Of a stretch of 64,000 nucleotides of DNA, positions 4,765 to 41,661 are shown one piece after another. The stretch covers positions 1-64,000 of the forward strand of contig JALOLR010000013.1 of the NCBI GenBank assembly GCA_025455885.1, written 5' to 3'. Within the stretch, counting starts at the first letter, position 1. The number at the start of each line of letters is the position of its first letter. A model generated the notes under the pieces. It made no database searches. It saw nothing but the letters and a program-made list of their open reading frames with translations, and was not told the origin of the DNA. Source of the DNA: Acidimicrobiales bacterium. Lineage in GTDB: Bacteria > Actinomycetota > Acidimicrobiia > Acidimicrobiales > Acidimicrobilacustridaceae. A program made the position numbers and the translations under genes.

Positions 4765-5568
4765 TCAGAGCGGCGCGGCGCCGGGGTCGGCCAGCCATCG
4801 CTGCACCGTCGCCGCGGTCCGCTCAGGGGCTTCGAGGTGGGCGGCGTGCCCGGTGTCGGGGACCACCGCCACCCGGGCGTTCTCCCCGATCGCCGCCGCC
4901 ATCCGGCGGGCCAGGTCCGTGAACTTCCTGTCGTCGCCGCCGGCGAGCAGGAGCACGGGCATCGCCAGCCGGTGGAGCTCGTCCCAGAGGGGCCGCTGGG
5001 ACCCGGTCCCCGCCGTCCGCAGGCTCGACGCCAGCCCTCCGGTGGTATTCCGGCGCCGTTCGTCGACGGCGGCGGCGCTGGGGGAGAGGCCGGCGAAGAG
5101 CGGTTGGGCGAGCCACTCCGCGAGGAAGGAGTCGACGCCGACGGCCTCGAGGTGATCGGCGAGACCCTCGTCGGCCGCCCGGCGGGCCGCCCGCTGGGCG
5201 TCGTCGTCGATGCCGGCGGTGGCCCCGATGAGCACCAGCCGGTCGACGAGGTCGGGCCGGGCGAGGGCCAGGTGCAGCGCCAGGCGACCTCCCATCGAGT
5301 AGCCGACGTACGTGGCCCGATGCCCCGACCGCCCGAGCAGGTCGGCACCGCCGACGAGATCGGCGCGGACCGCAGCGGATCCTCCGTGGCCGGGGGCGTC
5401 GACCGCCCACACGTCGTGGTCGGCGGCCAGCAGATCCGCGAAGGGGCCCCAGCAGCGGGCGGTCTGGGTGAACCCGTGCACCAGCACCAGACGATCCGCG
5501 CCGTCCGGGCCGCCCAGGCGCTCGATAGCGAGGCCGTCGTCGCGCGCCGTCGCGTCCGTCGATGCCAT
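4765..5568 (-). CDS. menH: Alpha/beta hydrolase, probable 2-succinyl-6-hydroxy-2,4-cyclohexadiene-1-carboxylate synthase
   Basis: The 267-residue protein is a complete alpha/beta hydrolase. It has the oxyanion-hole stretch LVLVHGFTQTARCW near residue 30, the nucleophile elbow GYSMGG with Ser91, an Asp in AGGDDRKF and a C-terminal His in DTGHAAHLE. MenH eliminates pyruvate from the MenD product. The family is large, and the assignment rests on its position divergent from menD and on the FTQT and RRRNT-like features shared with MenH. Start at 5568 is supported by TACCTT (5576-5581, minus strand) 7 nt upstream. A longer open frame upstream is antisense to menD and is not expected to be translated. 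Confidence 0.8.
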   Translation of the reverse strand: MASTDATARDDGLAIERLGGPDGADRLVLVHGFTQTARCWGPFADLLAADHDVWAVDAPGHGGSAAVRADLVGGADLLGRSGHRATYVGYSMGGRLALHLALARPDLVDRLVLIGATAGIDDDAQRAARRAADEGLADHLEAVGVDSFLAEWLAQPLFAGLSPSAAAVDERRRNTTGGLASSLRTAGTGSQRPLWDELHRLAMPVLLLAGGDDRKFTDLARRMAAAIGENARVAVVPDTGHAAHLEAPERTAATVQRWLADPGAAPL

Positions 5569-5662
5569 GCCGGGGAAGGTAGCGGTCGGCCCCTGCGAGG
5601 GGAACCGTCGGGGGCGCGGCGGGGGCATCAGCGCGACGACGGACGACCGTAGGCTGGCCGCC

Positions 5663-7435
5663 GTGGTCGACGACGCTGCCCCTCTCGCCCCCGACCCGCC
5701 GGGCGGGACGCCCGATGTCGGCGTCCTCAACGCCACGTTCGCGGCGACGCTGGTCGACGAGTGGGTGCGCGGCGGTGTGTCCGACGCCGTGGTCTGTCCG
5801 GGCTCCCGATCGACCCCGCTGGCCCTGGCCCTCGCCGCCGACGGCCGGATCCGGGTGCACGTCCACCACGACGAGCGCGCCGGGGCGTTCCTGGCCCTCG
5901 GGTTGGGTCGGGCCCTCGGCCGGCCGGCCGTGGTGCTCACCACGAGCGGCACCGCGGCCGTGGAGCTGCATCCGGCGGTCGTCGAGGCCGATCTCGACCG
6001 GGTGCCGCTGCTGGCCGTCACCGCCGACCGACCCCCCGAGCTCCGCGACGTCGGCGCCCCCCAGACCGTCGACCAGCAGCACCTGTTCGGCCGGGCGCCC
6101 CGGTGGTTCGCCGATCCGGGCCCCCCCGACGCCGCCGCGGAGGGGACGTGGCGGAGCGTCGCGGCGCGCTCGGTGCTCGAGGCGGTCGGTCCCCGGTCGG
6201 GACCGGTGCATCTCAACCTGCCCTTCCGCGAGCCGCTCCACGGTTCGCCGGCGGCGCTCCCGCCGGGACGCTCGGGGGGCGCCGCGTGGCACGCCCGGCC
6301 CCCGGGTGCCGGGGTGTCCGGCGAGCAGATCGAGGCCGTGGCGGCGTGCCTGCGTCCCGCTGCGGCGCGCGGCCTCATCGTGGTGGGCGGCGCGGTCGCC
6401 GACCCCGCCGGGGTGCTGGCCCTCGCCGACGCGTGGGGCTGGCCGGTCGTGGCCGACCCGCGCAGCGGCTGCCGTGTCGAGCACCCGCTCGTCGTCGCCC
6501 ACGCCGACGCCGTGCTGCGCGTGGACGGGCCGCGGCGCGACGCCACGGCGGTGCTGCGCCTCGGCACGATCCCTGCGTCGAAGGTGGTGGCGAAGTGGTC
6601 GGCTGCGTCGACCGGCCCCCAGGTGGTGGTCGAGGCGGGCGGCGCCTGGCTCGACCCGCACCGCACCGCCGCACTCCTGGTGGCCGCCGAACCGGGCGCA
6701 CTGGCGCGGGGGCTTGCCGGTGTCGCCGAGCCTGCGTCCGCCGATCCCGGGTGGTCGGCCGGGTGGCGGGCTGCCGATGACGCGGTGGCTGCGGTCATGG
6801 CCGCGGAGCTCGACGGCGAGGGGCCGGTCACCGAACCGGGCACGGCCCGTGCCGTGGCCGCGGCGGTCCCGCCCGGAGGTTCGTTGGTGGTGTCGTCCTC
6901 GATGCCGGTGCGCGACGTCGAGTGGTTCGCCGGCTCGCTCCCGGGGGTGACCGTCCACGCCAACCGGGGCGCGAACGGGATCGACGGCGTGGTGTCCACC
7001 GCAGTGGGGGTCGCGCTCGCAGGTGCACCGACCGTGACCCTGGTCGGCGACGTGGCGTTGCTGCACGACACCAACGCGCTGCTGGGCCTCGCAGGGCGTG
7101 ACGTCGATCTGGTGGTCGTGGTGGTCGACAACGACGGCGGGGGCATCTTCTCGTTCCTCCCCCAGGCGGCGGCCCTGGACGCAGACCGGTTCGAGCAGCT
7201 CTTCGGGACCCCTCACGGTGTGGACCTCGGGCGGCTCGCGGCGGCGCACCACCTGGCGCTGCGCACCATCGACACCGCCGAGGCGGTCGGGCCCGCCGTG
7301 GCCCGGGGGCTCGCCGCGGGAGGCGTCCACCTCCTGCGGGTCGTCACCGACCGCGCCCGCAACGTCGAGGTGCACGAGCGTCTGCAGACGGCGGCAGGGG
7401 CCGCGGTCCGCGCCGCCTGCGGCGAGGTGGGTTAG
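5663..7435 (+). CDS. menD: 2-Succinyl-5-enolpyruvyl-6-hydroxy-3-cyclohexene-1-carboxylate synthase
   Basis: MenD is the thiamine-diphosphate enzyme that joins isochorismate and 2-oxoglutarate, committing material to menaquinone. The 590-residue product has the N-terminal pyrimidine-binding domain with CPGSRSTPLALA, the conserved HHDERAGAF stretch with its catalytic Glu, TTSGTAAVELHPAV, and LTADRPPELRDVGAPQT. The C-terminal diphosphate-binding part has GDVALLHDTNALLG followed by VDNDGGGIFSFLPQ. The GTG at 5663 is preceded by TAGGCT (5650-5655) at 7 nt, a leaderless arrangement. The stop overlaps the stop of the convergent DUF4126 gene by a few bases. Confidence 0.95.
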   Translation: MVDDAAPLAPDPPGGTPDVGVLNATFAATLVDEWVRGGVSDAVVCPGSRSTPLALALAADGRIRVHVHHDERAGAFLALGLGRALGRPAVVLTTSGTAAVELHPAVVEADLDRVPLLAVTADRPPELRDVGAPQTVDQQHLFGRAPRWFADPGPPDAAAEGTWRSVAARSVLEAVGPRSGPVHLNLPFREPLHGSPAALPPGRSGGAAWHARPPGAGVSGEQIEAVAACLRPAAARGLIVVGGAVADPAGVLALADAWGWPVVADPRSGCRVEHPLVVAHADAVLRVDGPRRDATAVLRLGTIPASKVVAKWSAASTGPQVVVEAGGAWLDPHRTAALLVAAEPGALARGLAGVAEPASADPGWSAGWRAADDAVAAVMAAELDGEGPVTEPGTARAVAAAVPPGGSLVVSSSMPVRDVEWFAGSLPGVTVHANRGANGIDGVVSTAVGVALAGAPTVTLVGDVALLHDTNALLGLAGRDVDLVVVVVDNDGGGIFSFLPQAAALDADRFEQLFGTPHGVDLGRLAAAHHLALRTIDTAEAVGPAVARGLAAGGVHLLRVVTDRARNVEVHERLQTAAGAAVRAACGEVG

Positions 7436-30178: not shown

Positions 30179-31432
30179 ATGACCCGTTTCGTCCTTCCCG
30201 AGGCGCAGCTCCCGACCGCCTGGTTCAACATCCTCCCCAGGCTGGCCGAGCCGCTCGACCCACCTCTCCACCCGGGTACGCGCGAGCCGGTGACCCCTGA
30301 CGACCTCGCGCCGTTGTTCCCGATGGCCCTCATCGAGCAGGAGATGTCGCCCGCCCCGTGGATCGACGTCCCCGGCGAGGTGCTCGACATCCTGAAGCTC
30401 TGGCGCCCCACCCCGCTCGTGCGGGCCACCCGCCTCGAAGCGGCGCTCGGCACGCCGGCGCGCATCTACTTCAAGGACGAATCGGTCTCGCCGGCCGGTT
30501 CGCACAAGCCCAACACCGCCGTGCCCCAGGCCTTCTACAACAAGCAGGAGGGCGTCACCCGTCTCACCACGGAGACCGGCGCCGGTCAGTGGGGAACGGC
30601 CCTGTCGTTCGCCACCGCGCAGTTCGACATGGAGTGCATGGTGTACATGGTGCGGGCGTCGTACGACCAGAAGCCGTACCGCAAGATCATGATGGAGATC
30701 TGGGGTGGGGAGGTCGTGCCCTCGCCGATCGACGACCCCACCAGCCCGGGGTCGCTCGGCGCGGCCATCTCCGACGCGGTGCGCGACTGCGTGGGCCGGG
30801 ACGACTCCCACTACGCCCTCGGCTCGGTGCTCAACCACGTCTTGCTGCATCAGACCGTCATCGGCCTCGAGGCCAAGGAGCAGCTCCAGCTGGCCGGTGA
30901 GGACCTCCCCGACGTCGTGATCGCCCCGTGCGGCGGCGGCTCCAACCTCGGAGGTCTGGCGTTCCCGTTCGTCCCCGACGAGGGCGTGCGCATCGTGGCC
31001 GTCGAGCCCGAGTCGTGCCCGACCCTCACCGCCGGGCGCTTCGAGTACGACTTCGGTGATGTCGCCGGCATGACCCCGCTCATGCCGATGTACACCCTCG
31101 GCCACGACTTCATGCCCCCGTCCATCCACGCCGGGGGACTGCGCTACCACGGCGACTCCCCGATCGTCTCGAAGCTCGTGAAGGACGGCCGCATCGAGGC
31201 CGTGGCGCTGCCCCAGAGCAAGGTCTTCGACGCCGCCATCCAGTTCGCCAACACCGAGGGCAAGGTGGCCGCCCCCGAGGCGGCCCACGGCATCCGGATC
31301 GCCATCGACGAGGCGCTCGCCGCCAAGGAGACGGGCGAGGAGAAGGTGATCCTCTTCAACTACTGCGGTCACGGCCACCTCGACCTCGCCGCCTACGACG
31401 ACTACCTGCACGGTCGTCTCGTCGACGGCTGA
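30179..31432 (+). CDS. TrpB-like tryptophan synthase beta chain (TrpB2 type)
   Basis: The 417-residue PLP enzyme has the TrpB2-type N-terminus ([24 protein letters not shown]). The Schiff-base Lys is in [11 protein letters not shown], followed by [15 protein letters not shown] and the phosphate loop [10 protein letters not shown]. TrpB2 proteins condense indole and serine, often without a TrpA partner. A conventional trpB lies beside trpA at 40504, so this locus has both forms. The ATG is preceded by GAGGAG about 6 nt upstream, one of the few clear ribosome-binding sites here. Confidence 0.92.
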
Positions 31433-31481: not shown

Positions 31482-32201
31482 ATGTTCGTCAAGATCTGCG
31501 GGACCACCAACCTCGCCGATGCGCTGATGTCCGTGGCCATGGGCGCCGACGCGATCGGGTTCGTCATGGCCCCGTCACCGCGGCGGATCGAGGCCGACGA
31601 GGTCGGCCGCATCCTCCGCGAGGTCCCCGACGACGTCCTCACGGTGGGCGTGTTCCGTGACGAGTCCGCCCAGTACATCGTCGACGTGGTCACCGAGACG
31701 GGCCTGCGGGGCGTCCAGCTGCACGGGCGGGAGTCCCACGGTGAGGCCAGCTGGATCCGGGCGCGGGTGCCGTTCGTGGTGCAGGCCTTCGGAGCGGGTG
31801 ATCCCCGTCTCGACCGCGTCGACGACTACGACGTCGACGCGGTGCTGCTCGACTCGTCCACGCCGGGGTCGGGGCGGACCTTCGACTGGTCCCTCGTGGG
31901 CGACCTCCCCCGCCGCCGGCGCGTCCTGCTCGCCGGGGGCCTCCGGCCCGACAACGTCGCGGCAGCCGTCGCCGCCGTCCGGCCCTGGGGGGTCGACGTG
32001 GCGTCCGGCGTCGAGTCCTCGCCCGGGCGCAAGGACGTGAGGTCGGTGCGGCGCTTCATCGCCGAGGCGAACCGGGCGGCCGACCTGCCGACGGCGACGG
32101 CGCCGTTCGACGACGCTGCCGACGAGACCGGCGATCCGCGGGACGAGGGCGAGCCCACGCACGACACCGACACCCTGCAGCTCTTCGACGAGCGTCGTTG
32201 A
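31482..32201 (+). CDS. trpF: Phosphoribosylanthranilate isomerase
   Basis: TrpF catalyses the Amadori rearrangement before TrpC. The 239-residue TIM barrel begins MFVKICGTTNLADAL with the catalytic Cys, then VGVFRDES, VQLHGRES, LLDSSTPGSGRTFDW with the catalytic Asp, LLAGGLRPDNV and DVASGVESSPGRKD. About 30 C-terminal acidic residues extend past the usual end. TACCGT lies about 9 nt before the ATG. It is the last trp gene before the glycosylation cluster. Confidence 0.94.
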   Translation: MFVKICGTTNLADALMSVAMGADAIGFVMAPSPRRIEADEVGRILREVPDDVLTVGVFRDESAQYIVDVVTETGLRGVQLHGRESHGEASWIRARVPFVVQAFGAGDPRLDRVDDYDVDAVLLDSSTPGSGRTFDWSLVGDLPRRRRVLLAGGLRPDNVAAAVAAVRPWGVDVASGVESSPGRKDVRSVRRFIAEANRAADLPTATAPFDDAADETGDPRDEGEPTHDTDTLQLFDERR

Positions 32202-32241
32202 GCGCACGCTGCAGTCGGCAGCGTTCCTCCTCGGCACCGCA

Positions 32242-32321
32242 GAGGTCACACGTTCGAGACCTCAGTCGGCGTCTCCTCGTGACCGGCCTCGACCCGTCGG
32301 TGGGAGACCTCGCCCGAGGTC
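32242..32321. terminator. Two inverted repeats between convergent trpF and hydroxylase gene
   Basis: GAGGTC/GACCTC (32242-32247 with 32258-32263) and GACCTCG/CGAGGTC (32306-32312 with 32315-32321) form hairpins in the 124-bp space between two convergent genes. They share the same arm sequence and could also pair with each other. Neither has a T-run, so function as a bidirectional terminator is only inferred. Confidence 0.35.
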
Positions 32322-32325
32322 GACC

Positions 32326-34368
32326 TCAGGACTGGTCCCGGCACACCCCTTCCAGGGTGCGAAGCCAATCGGTCGGGCGGTAGTGCAGGAACAACGACGC
32401 GTAGTAGCGGCCGCGCAGAGGATGGGGCCGGCCGTGGGGGAGCTTCGCTCCCTCGTACAGCAGCATCTGGCCCGGTTCGAGGTACACGTCGTGGCATTGG
32501 CCCTCACGGTCCTCCACCACGAGCGGCCAAGGTTCGTCCACATCGGCGCCGACGTGGACGATGGAACTGATCACGTGGGTCTCGTAGCGGTCGTTGTGGC
32601 GGATCAGCGTCTGACCCTCTCGGTAGACCCTGAGTCCGTAGTGCGCGGTGGGCTCCAGCGGCGCCTGGTACCACTGCTCGTGCATCGACTTCAGCTCCTC
32701 GATCACCCAGGCGCCGAGCTCGCCGACGTCGATGAACGAAGGCATCCCGTCGGGCAGGAAGTGGTCGTCGGTGGTCTCGTCGGGGGCTGATGCCGCCCGG
32801 GCGGCGAGGACCTCGGCGAGCCGCTCTTGGACATCGGCAGGGGTGGTCACCACCCGGAACCCGTCGGCGGTCAGTGCCGGGAGGAGTTGGTGCTGGAGAT
32901 CGGTGCGTCGATCGGCGTCCCCGGTGAAGACCTCGGCGGGGGACTTGGTTCGCCTGGCCCAGAACACGATCGTGAACCGTCGGTCCTCGAAGCGGTCACC
33001 GGGGACGTGAACGGGGCGGACCTCGTGGGGCACATGGCTGTCGAAGACCACGAGGGTGTTGTCCTTCGGGGCCACCTCGGTGAAGGTGTCCGCAGCCTCG
33101 ATGACCCCGCCCACGTCGACGGTGTCGAAGAGTCGGAGCTCGCCACCCGAGAAGGCTTGTGGCTCACGGTTGAAGTAGTAGACCGCGCTGATGACGCGAG
33201 CCGCGACATCCGGACCGGCGGCGTCGACGTGCAGTCCGAAGTGGTCGCCGTCACCGTGCACGGTGAGCTGGCGCTCGATCGAGCCGAGTCTGAACCACTC
33301 GATGCCGAGCTCTCGACGGATGTGGGGGAGCAGGCCGACGAGTCGACCCTCGAACAGATCCCAGACCTTGTCGACATCGAAGTCCGTCTGTGATCGGCGC
33401 AGGTGGATGTGGTCGTCGAGCGGTTCGTCGGTGAGGACCTTGCTGGGGCTGAGATCGGCCTCCCGTGACAGCGCATGGTCGAGAAGACGACGGTGTTCCT
33501 CGGGAGTCAGGAGGTCGTCGAAGCGCAGGTGGCGGGCCCGGGTGACCTTCGCTTCGAACGCGGCCACCGCGGGCCGGGTCTCGGTGTCGTCGGGCGGCGC
33601 CTGGAGCTCGACCATCGGCTGTTGCTCGGCTCGGAGGAGCATGTCCGCAGCCAGGCCGTCCGCATCGGATGCCGCGCCGCGGAGCAGGACCAGGTGCGGT
33701 GCGAGCCGGCCGAGCAGGGACCTGGCCGCTGGAGCTCGTTGCTGGTTCGGCACCACGTGCTCGAGCAGAGCGAGCGCGGCACGGGCACCGGTGACCTCGA
33801 CCAGGTCCGGGTCGGGCTCGACCGCGACCACGAGCATCAGGGGTGCGGGTCGCGGTGAACCCGGCTCGTCGCGTTCCCTCGGGTCCGGGTCGGCGCAACC
33901 GCCCCCCACGAGGATCGGGAGGACGTGACCGGATCGGTCGAGGACCGCGAGACCGATCGAGAGCAGGGTTGCACCCGCTCTGACGAGCGCGTCGATCAGA
34001 GCCGGCGACTCGTCTGATCCGACGACAATGATGCCGCGACCGTGCCACGCGACGGCGCTGGCCCTCGCGACCACCAAGTCGGGACGCCGACGGTGCAGGC
34101 CGTCGAGGAGATCGGTGAGGAGCGCTCGGATGACGACGTCCCCGGCGACGTTGTGTCGCAACCCGCCATGCCCTCGCTCGAGCCCGTAGTGGTCGGGAGC
34201 ACGGCCGGTGACCTCGTAGCGCACTGCCGGTGCACCCGAGAGCACAGGCAGGGGCCCGTTCAGTCGGTCCGTGAGGGGTGCTCGCAGCTCCTCGGGCAGC
34301 ACGATCGAGGCCACGAAGCCATCGACCTCCACCAGCAGTTCGCGCCCTGGTGTCGCGTGTGTGTCCAT
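32326..34368 (-). CDS. Degenerate HprK-like domain fused to two 2-oxoglutarate/Fe(II) (prolyl hydroxylase-type) domains
   Basis: This 680-residue protein has three parts. Residues ~10-230 follow the HprK/PEPCK-like pattern (ARASAVAWHGRGIIVVG..., then ALVRAGATLLSIGLAVLD), but the P-loop lysine is gone (GSDESPALI), so it is probably a non-catalytic scaffold. Residues ~280-475 are a prolyl-4-hydroxylase-type dioxygenase with Fe ligands His380, Asp382 and His448 and a 2-oxoglutarate Arg in RRFTIVFW. Residues ~540-670 look like a second such domain with HND (His591, Asp593), LPHG (His645) and Arg654. The adjacent upstream gene encodes a Pro-repeat protein, its likely substrate. I chose ATG 34368; the frame extends to 34422 but overlaps that gene. 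Which domain hydroxylates proline is inference. Confidence 0.75.
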   Translation of the reverse strand: MDTHATPGRELLVEVDGFVASIVLPEELRAPLTDRLNGPLPVLSGAPAVRYEVTGRAPDHYGLERGHGGLRHNVAGDVVIRALLTDLLDGLHRRRPDLVVARASAVAWHGRGIIVVGSDESPALIDALVRAGATLLSIGLAVLDRSGHVLPILVGGGCADPDPRERDEPGSPRPAPLMLVVAVEPDPDLVEVTGARAALALLEHVVPNQQRAPAARSLLGRLAPHLVLLRGAASDADGLAADMLLRAEQQPMVELQAPPDDTETRPAVAAFEAKVTRARHLRFDDLLTPEEHRRLLDHALSREADLSPSKVLTDEPLDDHIHLRRSQTDFDVDKVWDLFEGRLVGLLPHIRRELGIEWFRLGSIERQLTVHGDGDHFGLHVDAAGPDVAARVISAVYYFNREPQAFSGGELRLFDTVDVGGVIEAADTFTEVAPKDNTLVVFDSHVPHEVRPVHVPGDRFEDRRFTIVFWARRTKSPAEVFTGDADRRTDLQHQLLPALTADGFRVVTTPADVQERLAEVLAARAASAPDETTDDHFLPDGMPSFIDVGELGAWVIEELKSMHEQWYQAPLEPTAHYGLRVYREGQTLIRHNDRYETHVISSIVHVGADVDEPWPLVVEDREGQCHDVYLEPGQMLLYEGAKLPHGRPHPLRGRYYASLFLHYRPTDWLRTLEGVCRDQS

Positions 34369-34396
34369 CGACGTGGCCGTCAGGCCATCGGAAGGT

Positions 34397-35017
34397 TCAG
34401 CCAGTGAACTTCGGCGAGGCATTCACCGCGGTCGCCGCGTCCGCTTCGGCGTCGGGGTCCACCGCCGCCGGTGCGGGGGCTGGTGCCGGTGCCGGTGCCG
34501 GTGCGGGGGCCGGTGCGGGGGCCGGTGCCGGTGCGGGGGCTGGGAACGGTGCGGGGAACGGTGCGGGGAACGGTGCCGGGAACGGTGCTGCCGCCGGCGG
34601 GGGAATGGGGGCGCCGGGTGCGGTCTGCGCGTCGGCACGGCTGGGCGAGGTGACGATCGACTCGACGATCGGGAGCGCCACCGCGGCAGCAGCCGCGGTC
34701 AGACCCAGCTTCTTGATGAGCTCGCGGCGGCCGATGGTCGGGACGCCGACCACGCCGGTGTCGATCAGCCCGCTGTCCACGAGCTCCTCGATGGCGAGCT
34801 CGACCACCTGGGCGTCCGGCGCGAGGCCGGTCGCCGCGGCGACCAGCGGGACCATGTCGGCGATCGTCGTCTTCCCGTCGCAGTGGTCCCAGACGACGGC
34901 CGCCGCCTCGTTGAGGGCATGCGCCTCACCGGTGACGTCGTTGAAGGCGAGGAGCTCGGTGGGCGTCCGCTCGACGAGGATGCCGTCGGTGCGGATCGGG
35001 CGGCTGTTCAGATCCAT
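34397..35017 (-). CDS. PqqD-domain, membrane-anchored Pro/Ala-repeat protein ending PKFTG (candidate hydroxylase substrate)
   Basis: This 206-residue protein starts with a PqqD-like winged-helix domain (residues ~5-88: FNDVTGEAHALNEAAAVVWDHCDG, ELAIEELVDSGLI). GRRELIKKLG and one hydrophobic helix (~104-122) follow, ending near SRADAQ, like a twin-arginine or internal signal segment. The rest is exported: PFPA x4 (145-160), PA x12 (161-184), an acidic DPDAEADAA stretch and the C-terminus NASPKFTG. The repeats recall arabinogalactan-protein modules, where alternating Ala-Pro is hydroxylated and glycosylated. Start at 35017 is fixed by TACGGT (35025-35030, minus strand) 7 nt upstream. The hydroxylase gene follows 28 bp downstream. 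Confidence 0.75.
   Translation of the reverse strand: MDLNSRPIRTDGILVERTPTELLAFNDVTGEAHALNEAAAVVWDHCDGKTTIADMVPLVAAATGLAPDAQVVELAIEELVDSGLIDTGVVGVPTIGRRELIKKLGLTAAAAAVALPIVESIVTSPSRADAQTAPGAPIPPPAAAPFPAPFPAPFPAPFPAPAPAPAPAPAPAPAPAPAPAPAPAAVDPDAEADAATAVNASPKFTG
34466..34585. repeat. In-frame tandem repeats encoding PFPA x4 and PA x12
   Basis: On the minus strand four 12-bp units encode Pro-Phe-Pro-Ala and are followed by twelve 6-bp units encoding Pro-Ala, with synonymous variation between CCG/CCC and GCA/GCC. All units are multiples of three, so changes in copy number would lengthen or shorten the Pro-rich stalk without a frameshift. Confidence 0.85.
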
Positions 35018-35024
35018 GGGCGGA

Positions 35025-35030
35025 ACCGTA
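35025..35030 (-). promoter_or_regulatory. -10 hexamer of the PqqD-protein gene
   Basis: Read on the minus strand this is TACGGT, ending 7 nt before the ATG at 35017. It lies in the 32-bp gap after the O-fucosyltransferase-like gene, so the substrate/hydroxylase pair likely has its own leaderless transcript. Confidence 0.5.
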
Positions 35031-35049
35031 CAACGGATGCCGGCGGATT

Positions 35050-36159
35050 TCAGGGGTCCCTGAGGCGAGCCTCCGGCCACTCGCGCATCCACGCCAGCGC
35101 CGCGGGGTCGACCGGGTACCCGAGGCGGTTCCAGGTGAAGGGTCCGTCGACGACCGGCAGGTAGGTGCAGCGCTCGAAGCGAGTTCCGCCTCCCAGGAAG
35201 TCAGCGGTGAACATGAACGGCTCGAGCGGGTCGGCGAGGTGGCGTCGGCGGTGGATGATGCCGGTGAACGTGCTCGCGAAGGTGCCGACGAAGCTGTCGG
35301 CTCGGGCCGCCACCTCCTGGGTGACCATCGCCAGCGCCGAGTCGTCGTGTCGCTCCAGTTCGGCGAAGCGCGCTCGCCACACCGGATCGTCGAGCAGGTG
35401 CTGGGAGAGGAACACCACGTCGCCGAAGTGGGAGCGGAGGGGCTTGAACACGTCGGAGTCCGGGTCGGCCTCGGTGCAGACCACCAGCCGCTCCTCCGAC
35501 GGCAGGACCGCCGCCAGGTTGTCGCGGATCATCCACGGCGTGACCCGTCGGTAGTCGGGAACCCCGACGAGGTGGTCGGTGCGTCGGATGTGGACGGCGT
35601 TGAACCGACCGAGCTCGGCGGCCACCGAGCTCGCCAGCTCCCGGTAGGGACGCTTCGGTCGGATCTGCTCCAGCAGCGAGAACACCTCGCGGCGCCGGTC
35701 CGGTCGCAGGTGGAAGAAGTACGAGTACGAGGCGAGGCCGCGTGCGGTGAGGTCGAGGATCGGTGCGTCGGCCCAGTCGGGATCGAAGGCGACGGTCGGG
35801 CGCCCGTGGGCGAAGGCGGCGGCACACTCCTCGTCCTGCGGACCTGTCGGACCATCGGCGTAGGCGACCTGGTAGAGGTCCGGCCAGTCGACGGTGAGCA
35901 CCGGATGCGCGCCCACGAGCTGGTCGTAGTCGTCGTCGCCGAGCACCGTGACCGGGAGGTCGAACAGATCCCGGAGGCTCGAGGCCGTCCCCGCATCCAC
36001 GCCGTCGAGCGCCGGTCGCGGCCCCCAGCCGATCGGCGAGTCGACCGGGAGCGACAACGCGCGATCGCTGAGGTGGGCGAGTCCGACCCCGATCTCGAGC
36101 GCCATCAGCTTGTTCGAGAGGTAGCCGACGTCCTCGGCCATTCGGAGCACCCGTACCAC
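35050..36159 (-). CDS. O-fucosyltransferase-like glycosyltransferase
   Basis: The 369-residue protein resembles the GDP-fucose protein O-fucosyltransferase/NodZ superfamily. It has an HIRRTDH motif (residues 190-196) that contacts the donor, a downstream VVCTEADPDSDVFKPLRSHFG strand, and a C-terminal ADSFVGTFASTFTGIIHRRR block (about 287-306). Such enzymes use GDP-L-fucose or other GDP-sugars, which fits the GDP-mannose 3,5-epimerase in the cluster. It has no signal peptide and should act in the cytoplasm. The GTG at 36159 is preceded by TAGGCT (36166-36171, minus strand) at 6 nt. The exact donor and acceptor are unknown. Confidence 0.7.
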   Translation of the reverse strand: MVRVLRMAEDVGYLSNKLMALEIGVGLAHLSDRALSLPVDSPIGWGPRPALDGVDAGTASSLRDLFDLPVTVLGDDDYDQLVGAHPVLTVDWPDLYQVAYADGPTGPQDEECAAAFAHGRPTVAFDPDWADAPILDLTARGLASYSYFFHLRPDRRREVFSLLEQIRPKRPYRELASSVAAELGRFNAVHIRRTDHLVGVPDYRRVTPWMIRDNLAAVLPSEERLVVCTEADPDSDVFKPLRSHFGDVVFLSQHLLDDPVWRARFAELERHDDSALAMVTQEVAARADSFVGTFASTFTGIIHRRRHLADPLEPFMFTADFLGGGTRFERCTYLPVVDGPFTWNRLGYPVDPAALAWMREWPEARLRDP

Positions 36160-36165
36160 CCGGCG

Positions 36166-36192
36166 AGCCTACGGCGCATCCGTCGGTACTCT
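36166..36192. promoter_or_regulatory. Divergent promoter pair of two glycosyltransferase genes
   Basis: Minus-strand TAGGCT (36166-36171) ends 6 nt before the O-fucosyltransferase-like GTG. Plus-strand TACTCT (36187-36192) ends 6 nt before the GlcNAc-transferase-like ATG at 36199. The start codons are 39 bp apart, so the two transcripts should be tightly linked in regulation. Confidence 0.5.
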
Positions 36193-36198
36193 CCGGCC

Positions 36199-37209
36199 AT
36201 GGCCGGCGCGAGCGAACCGCTGATCTTCGTGGCGCTGGCGTCCTACTGCGAGCCGGAGCTCGCGCTCACGATCGAGGACTGCCTGCGTCGGGCCGAGCGT
36301 CCCGACCGGCTGCGCTTCGGCGTCCTCCACCAGTTCGACGAGGACGGCCCGCCGGAGATCGGCGAGGACTGCTTGGCTCACCTCGCCGAGGATGATCGCT
36401 TCCGCATCGTCGTCCGTGACCACCGCGAGAGCAAGGGCGGATGCTGGGCCCGTCACTGGGTGCAGGGCCTCTACGAGGGCGAGGAGCTCACGCTCCAGGT
36501 CGATGCCCACACGCGGTTCGCCGACGGCTGGGACGCCCGGCTCGTCGAGATGATGGAGGAGCTCCCCTCGGAGCGGCCGCTGATCACCGGATTCCCTCCC
36601 CCCTACTTCCGTGCCGACGGCGTCGACCTCGTCGATCGGACCGCCGTCGAGCGGGTCCCGTCCGTGCGAGTGGTGCACTGGTCCGACGAGGGGTGGATCC
36701 ACCATCCGACCGAGCACATCGAACACACCAGGCCTGCGCCCCGGCGCACCAGGGTCCTGTCAGGGGCCTTCGTCTTCGCCCCCGGCTCCTGGATCACCGA
36801 CGTCCGCCAGGATCCGTCCCACATCTACACGGGTGAGGAGTTCGCGCTGACCCTGCGCTCGTTCACGCACGGCTACGACCTCTTCGAGCCGACCCAGGTG
36901 GTGGTCTGGCATCGCAGTCATCCCACCACGAACCGGAAGTGGATCGGCGACGCCCCCAGTGGCCTCGTCGGTGCCCGCCAAGGCCGGGCCTACGCCCGCC
37001 TCCGGCTGCTCCTCGCCGGTGACCCCGACCGGCGGCTCGGGTCCTACTCCCTGGGTTCGGAGCGGACGCTCGACGACTACCACCGGTTCTCGGGCCTCGA
37101 CTGTCGGACCCGAACGATCCACCCCGACGCCTTCGCAGGGATCCCGCCCGACTCGATGACGATCACCGCCCCGCCTCAGGAGACGCGCCGCGGGTCCGCG
37201 GACTTCTGA
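36199..37209 (+). CDS. GlcNAc-transferase-like protein (Skp1 hydroxyproline GlcNAc-transferase family, PF11397)
   Basis: The 336-residue protein follows the pattern of the family whose known member adds GlcNAc to hydroxyproline of Skp1 in Dictyostelium. FVALASYCEPELALTIEDCL is at the N-terminus. GGCWARHWVQGLYEGEELTLQ then leads into VDAHTRFADGWD (residues 101-112), the DxD-like QxDSHxRF motif of the family. ITGFPPPYF and IYTGEEFALTLRSFTHGYDLF follow. It has no signal peptide. TACTCT 6 nt upstream fixes the ATG. Its 3' end overlaps the convergent HPAT-like gene by 34 bp. Hydroxyproline as acceptor is inferred from the neighbouring hydroxylase. Confidence 0.75.
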   Translation: MAGASEPLIFVALASYCEPELALTIEDCLRRAERPDRLRFGVLHQFDEDGPPEIGEDCLAHLAEDDRFRIVVRDHRESKGGCWARHWVQGLYEGEELTLQVDAHTRFADGWDARLVEMMEELPSERPLITGFPPPYFRADGVDLVDRTAVERVPSVRVVHWSDEGWIHHPTEHIEHTRPAPRRTRVLSGAFVFAPGSWITDVRQDPSHIYTGEEFALTLRSFTHGYDLFEPTQVVVWHRSHPTTNRKWIGDAPSGLVGARQGRAYARLRLLLAGDPDRRLGSYSLGSERTLDDYHRFSGLDCRTRTIHPDAFAGIPPDSMTITAPPQETRRGSADF

Positions 37210-38027
37210 TCCACGGCGTCGGCCAGGATCGTGAGCAGATCACGGCAGTAGTCGAGCCGGGCCTCGGCCGGATCGACGCCGATCGGCTCCCATGGTCGGT
37301 AGTCGCGCTTGGACCACAGCGGCCGGCCATCGTGGGCCTCGACGGTCTGGCAGTAGTGGATGATCGGCGCCCCCGCCACCACGTCCTCGGGCCAGTTCAT
37401 CCACGCAGTCATCGCCTCGGTGACCAGGTCGAGACCGTCGGCGGCCAACGCGCCCACCAACGCGTACATGTCGCTCTCCCACCGCCCGGTCGCTTCCCGA
37501 ACGACGGCCGTCAGCTCGATCCAGCGGGGGAGGATCCGCTCGAGGTCGGCGGTGTGGACGAGGCCGGGCCAGGTCACTGCCGGGAGGTCGCCGGCATCCG
37601 ACCCGATGGCGTCGGCCACGACCCGGGCGGGGGCGCTGGTCGGGTGGAAATCGAGCCACCGCTGCAGCGTCGCGGTCCCTGCGACCGCCCGCCCTGGCAC
37701 TCGAGCTCGGAACACCATGTCGGGGTCGAGGATCAGTACCGTGCCGACCGGTCGCTCCTCCTCCAGCCACTCGAGCAGGGAGAACAGCCGGTTGTAGGGC
37801 GGGTAGCGATCGCCGGTGGCGGGGTGGACGTTCGGCGCGTCGGTCGCCACGACCCGCGCGTGGACGTGATCGGGCACCGGTCCTCCGTCAGGGGTGGCGA
37901 CCAGACGCACGAACTCACCGGGTTGTCCCACCTGCTTCCAGGTGTGGATCAGCAGCTGGCACTGCCAGTTGACCGAGGGGGCGGTGTCGGTGCACACGAC
38001 CGAGTAGAGCGATTCCCGAGCGGTCAT
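37176..38027 (-). CDS. Plant HPAT/SGT-like glycosyltransferase (Hyp O-arabinosyl / Ser galactosyl transferase superfamily)
   Basis: The 283-residue protein closely follows the plant peptidyl-serine galactosyltransferase and hydroxyproline O-arabinosyltransferase pattern. It begins YSVVCTD, then NWQCQLLIHTWKQVGQPGEF (residues 20-39), HPATGDRYPPYNRLFSLLEWL (68-88) and the acidic VLILDPDMVFR (D101, D103), which should bind the metal and nucleotide sugar. A later WESDMYALVGALAADGL resembles the helix after the catalytic site. Plant relatives decorate extensins. Start ATG at 38027 overlaps the 61-aa ORF stop (ATGA), so it is coupled to the GT77-like gene. The sugar transferred cannot be deduced. 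Confidence 0.65.
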   Translation of the reverse strand: MTARESLYSVVCTDTAPSVNWQCQLLIHTWKQVGQPGEFVRLVATPDGGPVPDHVHARVVATDAPNVHPATGDRYPPYNRLFSLLEWLEEERPVGTVLILDPDMVFRARVPGRAVAGTATLQRWLDFHPTSAPARVVADAIGSDAGDLPAVTWPGLVHTADLERILPRWIELTAVVREATGRWESDMYALVGALAADGLDLVTEAMTAWMNWPEDVVAGAPIIHYCQTVEAHDGRPLWSKRDYRPWEPIGVDPAEARLDYCRDLLTILADAVDQKSADPRRVS

Positions 38028-38209
38028 GACGAGGAGAGGGCGATCCGGCGTCGGGCCGAGGGCTCCGGCCGACGACGACCGGTCGACGGTCGGCGGCTCC
38101 GGGACGATCGCAGGAAGAGGGCAGTGGGATGCTCGGCGAACCGACGGGTCGTCTCCGGATCGTACATCGGCACGTTCCTGGGCTGGAGTGGGCCGAGCCG
38201 ACCGATCAT
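38024..38209 (-). CDS. Small 61-aa ORF coupled to both neighbouring glycosyltransferase genes
   Basis: This ORF begins at an ATG that overlaps the TGA of the GT77-like gene (ATGA) and ends with a TGA that overlaps the ATG of the HPAT-like gene (ATGA). Such double 4-bp overlap is good evidence for a real coupled gene. The product begins MIGRLGPLQPRNVPMYDPET and has an Arg/Ser/Pro-rich C-terminal half, without membrane segments. I do not recognise it. It may be a small partner of the transferases or simply a translation bridge. Confidence 0.5.
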   Translation of the reverse strand: MIGRLGPLQPRNVPMYDPETTRRFAEHPTALFLRSSRSRRPSTGRRRPEPSARRRIALSSS

Positions 38210-39213
38210 GGCAGGCCGAATCGCTCGATCTTCGCGAGCTTCTCCGCGGGGTCGCGTGTCCACGAGTAGTGGATCACCACGCCGTCGGACCGCCACCGGT
38301 GCGCCGCCGGACTCAGGCCGTCCACCAGGTCGAAGAGGTGGCCGTTGAGGTACTCCGACTCGGGGAGCACCTGCACCCGCACCTGGTTGTAGGCATGGAA
38401 TCGTTCGAGGACCCGATTCAGCACGAGCTGCTCGCTGCCGAGGTGCACGATCGAGGCGGCGTTGCCCACCACCGTCGCCCACAGGCTGCGGGTGGCGTCA
38501 CCGGCCCGCACGTGCACGAATCCCGAGTTCACGTGCAGCGGTGCGAAGTGCGGATTGGGACCGTCGTGCATGACGAGCACGTCGGCATCCGTCTCGCGCC
38601 CGGCCAGATCGGCGATGGGGTCGCGGAGCCAGATCAGGTCGACATCCTGGAAGAGCACGACCTGTGCCACGTGCAGGGCGTCCCACGTGGCCACCGATTT
38701 CCAGGGCACCAGGCGCGAGAAGCGGGCGTCGTTCCAACCGACGACCGAGCCCAGCCGGTCGCAATCCTCGACGTTGGCGGCCACCGACGTCAGGCCGAGC
38801 TGGCGGCAGCGCCGATCGGTATCGAGATCGAGGGCGACGATGACGGTGCGGGACCGCACCTCGATCGATCTCTCGTCACAGGAGGACAACCAGCGCTCGA
38901 GGAACGGCAGGAACGGGGCGTTGCAGACCGACACGACCAACGTCCGAGGGTGATCGAGGGCCGCCACCGCCTGGTGCCACGCGTCCGCCCGTCGGGGGCC
39001 GTCGACGTTCAGCATGTCGACGAACATCTGCCGTGTCTCGTCGATGCCGAGGGGACGGGGGTCGGGCAGGAGACCGAGCTCCGCGTCCAGGATGCGGACC
39101 AGGTTCGGGTTGACGGCCGCCTCCTGCGCCACCGAGGGCGCGTGCATGGCCATTCCCGCCATCGTCACCCGGTCGTCGAGCCCCACGACCCACGGCCAAC
39201 GGACATCGTCCAC
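38206..39213 (-). CDS. GT77-like nucleotide-diphospho-sugar transferase (PF03407-like)
   Basis: The 335-residue protein resembles the GT77 family, which includes plant RRA/XEG113 extensin arabinosyltransferases and Skp1-modifying AgtA. Visible features are VIVALDLDTDRRCRQLGL (about 124-140), RLVPWKSVATWDALHVAQVVLFQDVDLIWL with the metal-binding DVD at 190-192, VNSGFVHVRAGD and SEQLVLNRVLERF. GTG at 39213 is preceded by TACCGT (39220-39225, minus strand) at 6 nt. The longer open frame to 39420 overlaps the divergent epimerase and is not used. Donor sugar unknown. Confidence 0.7.
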   Translation of the reverse strand: MDDVRWPWVVGLDDRVTMAGMAMHAPSVAQEAAVNPNLVRILDAELGLLPDPRPLGIDETRQMFVDMLNVDGPRRADAWHQAVAALDHPRTLVVSVCNAPFLPFLERWLSSCDERSIEVRSRTVIVALDLDTDRRCRQLGLTSVAANVEDCDRLGSVVGWNDARFSRLVPWKSVATWDALHVAQVVLFQDVDLIWLRDPIADLAGRETDADVLVMHDGPNPHFAPLHVNSGFVHVRAGDATRSLWATVVGNAASIVHLGSEQLVLNRVLERFHAYNQVRVQVLPESEYLNGHLFDLVDGLSPAAHRWRSDGVVIHYSWTRDPAEKLAKIERFGLP

Positions 39214-39219
39214 CCGTCG

Positions 39220-39225
39220 ACGGTA
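39220..39225 (-). promoter_or_regulatory. -10 hexamer of the GT77-like operon
   Basis: Minus-strand TACCGT ends 6 nt before the GTG at 39213. It lies in the 172-bp space between the GT77-like gene and the divergent epimerase, whose own TACGGT is at 39371-39376, about 9 nt before its GTG. Confidence 0.5.
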
Positions 39226-39385
39226 CCGGTCGGGAGTTCGGCCTCGTTGCCGTGGCCGCCCGGCGTCGCCATGACGCCCTCGCCCGAGCCGGTCGAACAG
39301 GCAGGCCTCCCCGGCTGTCGCCGTCACGGGACGAGAGCTGGGGCCGAGGACGAGCCGTACGACCATGGGATACGGTCGCCGGCTT

Positions 39386-40360
39386 GTGAAGGTTCTTGTC
39401 GCCGGTGCCGGCGGGTTCATCGGTGGTCACCTCGTGGCGTCGCTGCTGGCCGACGGCGTCGACGTGCGTGCAGTCGACCGCAAGCCCCGGGTCGAGTGGC
39501 TCCAGTGCTTCGCCGACGCCGAGAACGTGACGGTCGACCTCGACAGCGCGTCGACGTCGGCTGCGGCCGTGGCCGGGTGCGACCGGGTGTTCAACCTGGC
39601 GTGCGACATGGGAGGGATGGGCTTCATCGAGCTGAACAAGGCCCTCTGCATGCGGTCGGTGCTCACCAACACCCACCTCATCGCCGCCGCCGTGGACGCT
39701 GAGGTCGACCGCTACTTCTTTGCGTCGACCGCCTGTGTGTATCCCCAGAGCCGGCAGGACACCACCGCTCCGGTCGCTCTCTGCGAAGACGATGCGTACC
39801 CGGCCGATCCCGAGGACGGCTACGGGTGGGAGAAGCTGTTCAGCGAACGGATGTGCCGACACCACGCGGAGGACTTCGGCTTGGACGTGCGCATCGCCCG
39901 TTTCCACAGTGTCTACGGACCGCACTGCACCTGGCAGGGCGGGCGGGAGAAGGTCCCGGCCGCGATCTGCCGGAAGGTGGCCGAGGCCGCCGCCGACGGC
40001 GTGGACGAGATCGAGGTGTGGGGCGACGGCGAGCAGCGCCGCAGCTTCCTCTACGTCGACGACGCCATCGTCGGGGTGCGTCGCCTGATGGACTCCGAGG
40101 TGTCGGATCCGATCAACATCGGGTCCGCGGAGATGGTGAGCATCAACGACCTGATCGATACGGTGAGTGCGGTGGCCGGTGTCGCACTCGCCCGTCGCCA
40201 CGATCTCTCGGCCCCCCAGGGGGTCCGCGGTCGATCGAGTGACAACACGATGGTGCGCGAACGACTCGGCTGGGAGCCGACCACGACCCTGCGGGAGGGC
40301 ATCGAGCCCACGTACCGGTGGGTCGCCGCGCAGCTGGGGACCGGGACCGTCGAGCCGTAG
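39386..40360 (+). CDS. GDP-mannose 3,5-epimerase-like NAD-dependent epimerase
   Basis: The 324-residue short-chain dehydrogenase/epimerase has the NAD motif GAGGFIG (7-13) and the catalytic YGWEK (Tyr146, Lys150). It also has a set of signatures I associate with plant GDP-mannose 3,5-epimerase: [11 protein letters not shown] (72-81), [58 protein letters not shown] and GVRGRSSDN. Such an enzyme would supply GDP-L-galactose, and GDP-L-gulose as an intermediate. It probably feeds the GDP-sugar transferases of the cluster. GTG at 39386 was chosen because homology begins there. It is transcribed toward trpB. Confidence 0.82.
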
Positions 40361-40503
40361 CCGATCGGTCTGCTCGGGTGGGGAGCAGGGCTGACCCGCG
40401 CCGACCCAACCGTCCTTTCCGAGTTCCCCCTCCCGTCCGGGGCGACCTACCCTCCGCGAGTCCGTCCCGTCCCCGTCGTCGCCCACCACCGAGGTGCGTT
40501 CCC

Positions 40504-41661
40504 ATGGCCCTGTCCGAACCCTCTGCGAGCGGGCGCTTCGGCGAGTTCGGCGGGCGATTCGTACCCGAGACGCTGGTGCCGGCCTGTGAGGAGCTGGAGC
40601 GGGCCTTCCGCTCGGCGTGGGGGGACCCGGCGTTCCGCGGCGAGCTCGACGGCCTCCTGGCCGACTACGCCGGCCGCCCGTCCCCGCTCACCGAGTGCAC
40701 CCGCCTCTCCGAGGAGCTCGGCGTGCGCGTCCTGCTGAAGCGCGAGGACCTCAACCACACCGGCAGCCACAAGATCAACAACGTGCTCGGCCAGGCCCTG
40801 CTCGCCCGGCGCATGGGCAAGACCCGCCTCGTCGCCGAGACCGGGGCAGGCCAGCACGGCGTCGCCACCGCCACCGCGGCAGCCCTGCTGGGCATGGAGT
40901 GCATGGTCTACATGGGTGAGGTCGACATGGGCCGCCAGCAGCTCAACGTCTTTCGCATGCGCCTCCTCGGCGCCGAGGTCGTCCCGGCCGTGTCGGGCAG
41001 CCGGACCCTCAAGGACGCCGTCAACGAGGCCATGCGGGACTGGGTGGCCACCGTGGCCACGAGCCACTACTGCCTCGGTTCGGTGATGGGCCCGCACCCC
41101 TACCCGTGGATGGTCCGGGAGTTCCACACCGTGATCGGCACCGAGGCCCGGGCGCAGTGCGCGGAGCTCCTCGACGGTGGTGTCCCCGACGTGGTGACCG
41201 CGTGCGTGGGCGGCGGCTCCAACGCCATCGGCATCTTCTCGGGCTTCGCCGACACCGACGCCGAGCTCGTGGGCGTCGAACCGGCCGGCGGCGCGGCCGT
41301 CGGGCGGGGCGTGCCCGGCGTGGTGCACGGGATGAAGAGCTACCTCATGCAGGACGAGTTCGGGCAGGTGCAGGAGGCGCACTCCATCTCCGCCGGGCTC
41401 GACTACCCCGGGGTCGGGCCGGAGCACTCGTTCCTCTCCTCGATCGGCCGGGCCCGCTACGAGCAGGTCACCGACGCCGAGGTGATCGACGCCTTCCAGC
41501 TGCTGAGCCGCACCGAGGGCATCATCCCGGCGCTCGAACCCGCGCACGCGCTGGCCTGGATCAGCCGCGACCGGGCCGCCCTCGCCGGGCGCACCGTGTT
41601 GTTGAACCTCTCGGGGCGAGGCGACAAGGACGTCGGCCAGATGATGGAGATCCTCGGTTGA
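40504..41661 (+). CDS. trpB: Tryptophan synthase beta chain (TrpB1 type)
   Basis: This conventional TrpB (385 residues) has [15 protein letters not shown], the PLP Lys in [57 protein letters not shown] and LSGRGDKD. It pairs with the adjacent trpA, unlike the TrpB2 form at 30179. The stop overlaps the trpA TTG. The 143-bp space upstream separates it from the epimerase and shows no clear TAnnnT at leaderless distance. Confidence 0.96.

Follow-up and report, generated by a model that had tools for sequence, protein, structure and literature searches.

A candidate bacterial hydroxyproline-rich-glycoprotein pathway centered on a double oxygenase with an HprK-related pseudokinase domain

Repeat proteins bearing O-glycosylated hydroxyproline have been described in plants, algae and protists. 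The Skp1 system of Dictyostelium and Toxoplasma uses a cytoplasmic prolyl hydroxylase followed by a GlcNAc-transferase that acts on the hydroxyproline; this transferase belongs to the PF11397 family. In plants and green algae, the hydroxyproline-rich glycoprotein (HRGP) pathway operates in the ER and Golgi and yields arabinogalactan proteins (AGPs) and extensins; it employs prolyl 4-hydroxylase (P4H), HPAT and the arabinose-extending enzymes RRA and XEG113. HPAT belongs to GT95, RRA and XEG113 to GT77, and HPAT has a relative in the serine galactosyltransferase SGT1 of GT96 (PMC8012813). The HprK-related kinase A/PqqD systems (TIGR04352, TIGR04353) and the paeninodin-type RiPP kinases supply a comparison for the remaining parts of the locus. 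HprK-like kinases, together with discrete RREs, act on RiPP precursors, and LppK phosphorylates the substrate in a RiPP pathway (PMC13381572).

The locus described here lies in a stretch of 64 kb from an Acidimicrobiales genome, which as a whole we call the window. It has in common with the HRGP pathway a P4H-like oxygenase, HPAT-family and GT77-type enzymes, and a repeat protein whose prolines are clustered, non-contiguous and placed after A, S or T. It differs in being bacterial, in the PqqD tag on its candidate substrate, in a hydroxylase that is doubled and fused to an HprK pseudokinase, and in having a Tat-like segment where plants use the ER and Golgi. As with Skp1, the proposed order is cytoplasmic prolyl hydroxylation and then a PF11397-family enzyme, but Skp1 involves a single hydroxyproline and oxygen sensing, whereas here a repeat tail would be meant for export. 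An HprK-related domain and a PqqD partner are shared with the HprK-related/PqqD systems; unlike those, the kinase motifs of the window protein are lost, it is fused to oxygenases, PqqD sits within the candidate substrate, and scores to the NCBIfam equivalogs are nil or below cut-off. The searched literature, with subscription papers outside that search, yielded neither a published description of such a system nor a bacterial hydroxyproline-glycosylation cluster; as far as that literature goes, the cluster is made of known families in an arrangement so far unreported. The features are as follows, with G057, G084 and G239 denoting genomes from three other families of the order.

32202..40503, no strand: whole island between trpF (31482-32201) and trpB (from 40504), delimited by comparison with the same-genus genome G127
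32353..32901, minus strand: second oxygenase-type domain (residues ~490-672; H591, D593, H645, R647; invariant HxD...HxR; PHROG 2954, E 7e-20)
32929..33531, minus strand: 2OG/Fe(II) oxygenase domain 1, prolyl-4-hydroxylase-like (residues ~280-480; PF13640, E 2.3e-19; PDB 6t8m, E 3e-11)
33619..34347, minus strand: HprK-related pseudokinase domain, kinase motifs lost (residues ~8-250, matched core 80-246; HMM of four separate homologues, E 1.8e-8, and alignments)
34397..35017, minus strand: candidate substrate, PqqD plus a Tat-like RRELIKKLG segment plus a (PFPA)n(PA)n tail (PF05402, E 6e-7; repeat count)
35050..36141, minus strand: O-fucosyltransferase-like (O-FucT-like) glycosyltransferase, encoded upstream of PqqD (PF10250 below cut-off, E 1.5e-5; POFUT2 4ap5, E 0.002)
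36199..37209, plus strand: PF11397 glycosyltransferase (E 5.5e-48; conserved in G057, G084 and G239)
37176..38027, minus strand: HPAT-family (hydroxyproline-O-arabinosyltransferase) glycosyltransferase (PF23452, E 9.7e-8, over cut-off at 32.2 vs 23.9 bits)
38206..39162 (likely start), minus strand: PF03407 Nucleotid_trans glycosyltransferase, GT77-like (E 1.3e-20; homologue in the G057 cluster)
39392..40360, plus strand: GDP-mannose 3,5-epimerase, probable donor-sugar supply (PDB 2c59, E 1.4e-86)

The island is 8.3 kb long and is absent from G127, where trpF and trpB stand 111 bp apart (L053:4340-5005 and 5117-6274). A second TrpB-like gene at 30179-31432 (+) lies in the trp gene run of the window besides trpB (40504-41661), and it is present in G127 too.

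The fused gene runs on the minus strand from 34368 to 32326 and encodes 680 amino acids, with its start at ATG 34368 or the in-frame ATG 34422 and its stop at 32326; several stops rule out a plus-strand reading of the same interval. There is one copy in its own genome. The two C-terminal parts have coding-type GC by codon position (0.74/0.42/0.83 and 0.74/0.41/0.87). A first-pass annotation had described the product as an HprK-like part fused to two oxygenase domains and had proposed an HMM search of each third. Sequence searches match the N-terminus to an HprK-related profile, domain 1 to PF13640 and domain 2 to PHROG 2954; the architecture largely stands, with the qualifications that the annotation left the strand unstated and that the arginine of domain 2, whose HxD...H is present, is non-canonical. 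The two oxygenase domains are not a recognizable internal duplication, as profile comparison shows no similarity between them.

The HprK relationship is visible only through closer homologues. Bare Pfam, NCBIfam and PDB searches of the N-terminus return no HprK match, and the negative reading they invite was overturned by an HMM of four HprK-related proteins that relatives encode separately, beside the double oxygenase. This HMM matches the N-terminus with a score of 31 bits (E 1.8e-8 when 2234 sequences are searched), against a best E of 1.2 among controls consisting of 2000 shuffles and the other window frames, which bears out the earlier call of an HprK/PEPCK-like N-terminus. Against NCBIfam HprK_rel_A (TIGR04352) the separate proteins reach E values from 7e-12 to 1e-18, with scores of 45-67 bits under a curated cut-off of 200 bits; the fused protein has no TIGR04352 match in the NCBIfam search and so falls short of that equivalog cut-off. 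The absence of the Walker A lysine, also part of the earlier call, is confirmed by alignment, the window having GSDES-PAL where relatives have GRSxxGKS[ST]L. The active-site histidine is replaced by R102, and S137-I-G stands in place of the SDE that holds the acidic pair of SDEY. An active kinase's Walker A (GxxxxGK[ST]), histidine and acidic pair are found in L012, L013, L014 and L016 and are gone from the fused protein, and by sequence the label of HprK-like pseudokinase is correct.

Oxygenase domain 1 has the full HxD...H triad and the following arginine (H380, D382, H448, R464), as had been claimed for it. It was the profile of the domain-1 family that matched the prolyl 4-hydroxylase 6t8m, and the nearest solved relatives are prolyl hydroxylases: 6t8m, 4iw3 (Pseudomonas PPHD) and EGLN1. 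The corresponding claim for domain 2 survives in part. Its HxD...H (H591, D593, H645) is invariant in alignments across bacterial and phage relatives; the only fixed arginine near the triad is R647 at +2, against the usual +9/+10, and a tyrosine occupies +10. Because of this tyrosine at the usual position of the 2OG-binding arginine, the activity of domain 2 is probable but less secure than that of domain 1. In the window protein it has no Pfam match, and phmmer against the PDB found no oxygenase; in a phage homologue, PF13661 weakly matches the HxD strand (E 0.016). Phage members of PHROG 2954 bear both the names "2OG-Fe(II) oxygenase" and "ferrochelatase". The latter is rejected for domain 2 as a likely mislabel, since members keep HxD...H and the same gene is entered as a 2OG oxygenase in some records. 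The ferrochelatase label in cyanophages is probably an annotation error.

The gene directly upstream, on the same strand and 28 bases away, encodes the PqqD-repeat protein, in agreement with the earlier remark that PqqD and HprK-related proteins are encoded side by side. Its PqqD domain scores 30.1 bits to PF05402 (cut-off 23.4), and its 78-residue tail contains 27 prolines and little serine. The Tat-like segment lies inside the protein, behind PqqD; its TIGR01409 score of 16.1 bits is just under the cut-off of 16.7 that is exceeded in L012. Each of the four double-oxygenase genomes encodes a proline-repeat PqqD/Tat-like protein, on a separate contig (L059) in G084. The repeats vary by locus: PTGAPTSAPT in L012, PTSAPT in L013, PTPAPTPAPT in L014 and TTAATTVAP in L059. 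Most prolines in the tails of the window, L012, L013 and L014 are non-contiguous, stand two or four residues apart and follow an A, S or T, a pattern similar to the clusters of non-contiguous proline sites in plant AGPs. Tails of these proteins reach more than 350 residues, and that of L013 includes non-repeat stretches. In G226 and G246, of the same family as the window genome, a single oxygenase of the domain-1 type lies beside a PqqD/Tat-like/bacterial-Ig protein (L033:1255-2100 (-) and L034:8422-9390 (+)).

The full-length double oxygenase is rare. It occurs in four of the 397 genomes of the order, and among 346 genomes sampled from the phylum only the window's own has it. In the other three carriers, G239, G057 and G084, it adjoins a separate HprK-related gene of ~270 codons with an intact active site (FVHAGVV; PGRSxxGKS; YYSDEYAV). 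In these three distant relatives the HprK part is thus separate and intact, so that the window holds a fused and decayed version of it. All four carriers also have an HPAT relative (on another contig in G239), and none turned up in ~350 other genomes (six further profile-search genomes and 345 sampled from the phylum) or in IMG/VR, phage and plasmid records. PF23452 is over cut-off in two of the 397 genomes, both times within a double-oxygenase cluster. The O-FucT-like gene is conserved beside the double oxygenase in L012, L014 and L016, and in G057 the O-FucT-like and HPAT parts form one reading frame (L014:9810-12101).

Several neighboring observations concern individual relatives. A 965-residue protein combining a sulfotransferase-like part with PF11397 adjoins the cluster at L012:1284-4181 (-) and hints at sulfated glycans in that relative. 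G057 has a second double-oxygenase copy (L014:15601-16887 (+)) lacking the HxD pattern and arginine of domain 1 (HSHVVGD; VYFA), possibly a pseudoenzyme. At L007:1549-3415 (-), a single oxygenase lies beside a TfuA-like protein, recognized by eye only, which suggests another RiPP-type setting.

What would the pseudokinase be for? The separate HprK gene beside the double oxygenase in relatives indicates that HprK and the double oxygenase work together. Elsewhere in the same genome, on contig C1, a PqqD-HprK fusion protein with an intact Walker A is encoded (L055:6089-7585 (-)), which points to PqqD and HprK as partners. In the window, PqqD is carried by the repeat protein and HprK by the hydroxylase. 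The simplest reading is that HprK would bind PqqD and so unite oxygenase and tail; the pseudokinase probably docks the hydroxylase on the PqqD tag, and the docking scaffold proposed in the first-pass annotation gains support. Lost catalysis in a retained domain fits a purely docking role, although decay could account for it alternatively. In the relatives, the active HprK may also phosphorylate the substrate, by analogy with LppK. The same contig encodes a second protein that combines a PqqD domain, here weak, with an intact HprK-related kinase (L055:8455-9726 (+)); a Tat-signal-like protein follows it.

We consider the cluster, more than the single gene, to be the more interesting unit, as a candidate bacterial hydroxyproline-rich-glycoprotein pathway. 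The presence of HPAT-family, PF11397 and GT77-type enzymes together points to O-glycosylation of hydroxyproline as its purpose. With somewhat better than even confidence, judging from sequence, we assign the fused protein as the hydroxylase of such a system, docked by its pseudokinase on the PqqD-tagged repeat protein. The HprK-related domain, kept for docking, would grip the PqqD head of its neighbor, and both oxygenase domains, working in the cytoplasm, would hydroxylate the prolines of its PA/PFPA tail, domain 1 by homology and domain 2 on the presumption that it is active. The HPAT-, PF11397-, GT77- and O-FucT-type enzymes would then put sugars on the hydroxyprolines before export, with the epimerase making a donor, possibly GDP-L-galactose for the O-FucT-like enzyme. 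The modified tail would leave by way of the Tat-like segment, the PqqD head probably being cut off like a RiPP leader, and signal peptidase may process the tail. The predicted end product is a small surface glycoprotein like plant AGPs or extensins.

Several points count against this pathway. The hydroxylation target could be another residue or a sugar instead of proline. Since GT95 is related to SGT1 of GT96, family membership does not fix the donor and acceptor of the HPAT-family enzyme. The O-FucT-like enzyme is under its Pfam cut-off, the full set occurs in four genomes only, and the Tat-like segment of the window is both internal and marginal in score. Because relatives have an intact HprK, the original role may have been to phosphorylate, and the window copy may simply be decaying. 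Taken to its end, this last point makes the N-terminal domain a functionless remnant left after gene fusion and loss of an ancestral kinase step, as the loss of every kinase motif and an identity of 22-27% to relatives would allow. We think this unlikely, since the domain has kept 268 stop-free codons with coding-type GC (0.84/0.49/0.81), and conservation persists at several core positions and in its C-terminal AAL and RG motifs.

It is also conceivable that the oxygenases and glycosyltransferases act on a surface polysaccharide or other sugar, the PqqD-repeat protein serving only as a membrane-anchored scaffold or unmodified spacer. The PqqD-HprK proteins at L055 do lie in a polysaccharide export/glycosyltransferase locus. 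Among the PF03407, O-FucT-like and PF11397 families, not all are specific for proteins. Set against this are the peptide prolyl hydroxylases as closest PDB matches of domain 1, the proline-repeat PqqD protein in every double-oxygenase genome, the known hydroxyproline transferases in both the HPAT and PF11397 families, and an island that showed no polymerase, no flippase and no initiating glycosyltransferase; together they make the polysaccharide an improbable target. A RiPP-type pathway would treat PqqD and the Tat segment as a leader and cut the hydroxylated repeat to a small secreted peptide. PqqD and HprK-like proteins do act as partners in RiPP pathways (PMC13381572), and a lasso-peptide plasmid locus of Azospirillum oryzae (L036:5007-7321) has PqqD, a related single 2OG oxygenase and a "hypothetical" protein that is HprK-related. 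The island, however, contains no peptidase, cyclase or peptide exporter that we could find, and the long tails, with the non-repeat stretches of L013, are as expected of a surface protein, so we hold a RiPP product to be very unlikely.

If the candidate glycoprotein pathway is real, the presence of an HPAT-family enzyme in a bacterial cluster would inform the question of where the plant, algal and protist enzymes came from. We give even chances to the wider proposal that bacteria have a self-contained pathway of this kind, independent of or ancestral to that of plants, in which a RiPP-style PqqD tag on the substrate and a dead HprK on the hydroxylase take the place of the ER and Golgi in uniting enzyme and proline-repeat substrate. 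The cluster would also provide a compact set of genes with which bacteria could be made to produce AGP-like glycomodules. For the widespread and poorly explained HprK-related/PqqD pairs, it supplies a testable proposal: HprK as the grip on the enzyme side and PqqD as the tag on the substrate side.

The 2OG oxygenases of cyanophages and other phages are the remaining point of comparison, PHROG 2954 being the family of domain 2. Three IMG/VR phage contigs (L073-L075) encode double oxygenases of 395-398 residues with the same domain order and 28% identity. The gene order is double oxygenase, radical SAM/SPASM, PF11397 glycosyltransferase (L073:4400-7319, L075:81-3009). Unlike the window cluster, these contigs have the radical SAM/SPASM gene in between and virion genes around, and no HprK, PqqD or proline-repeat protein was seen on them; thus, the pairing of oxygenase and PF11397 recurs independently without PqqD or HprK. 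The position of the L073 and L075 rows among virion genes suggests a possible hydroxylation and glycosylation of a virion protein.
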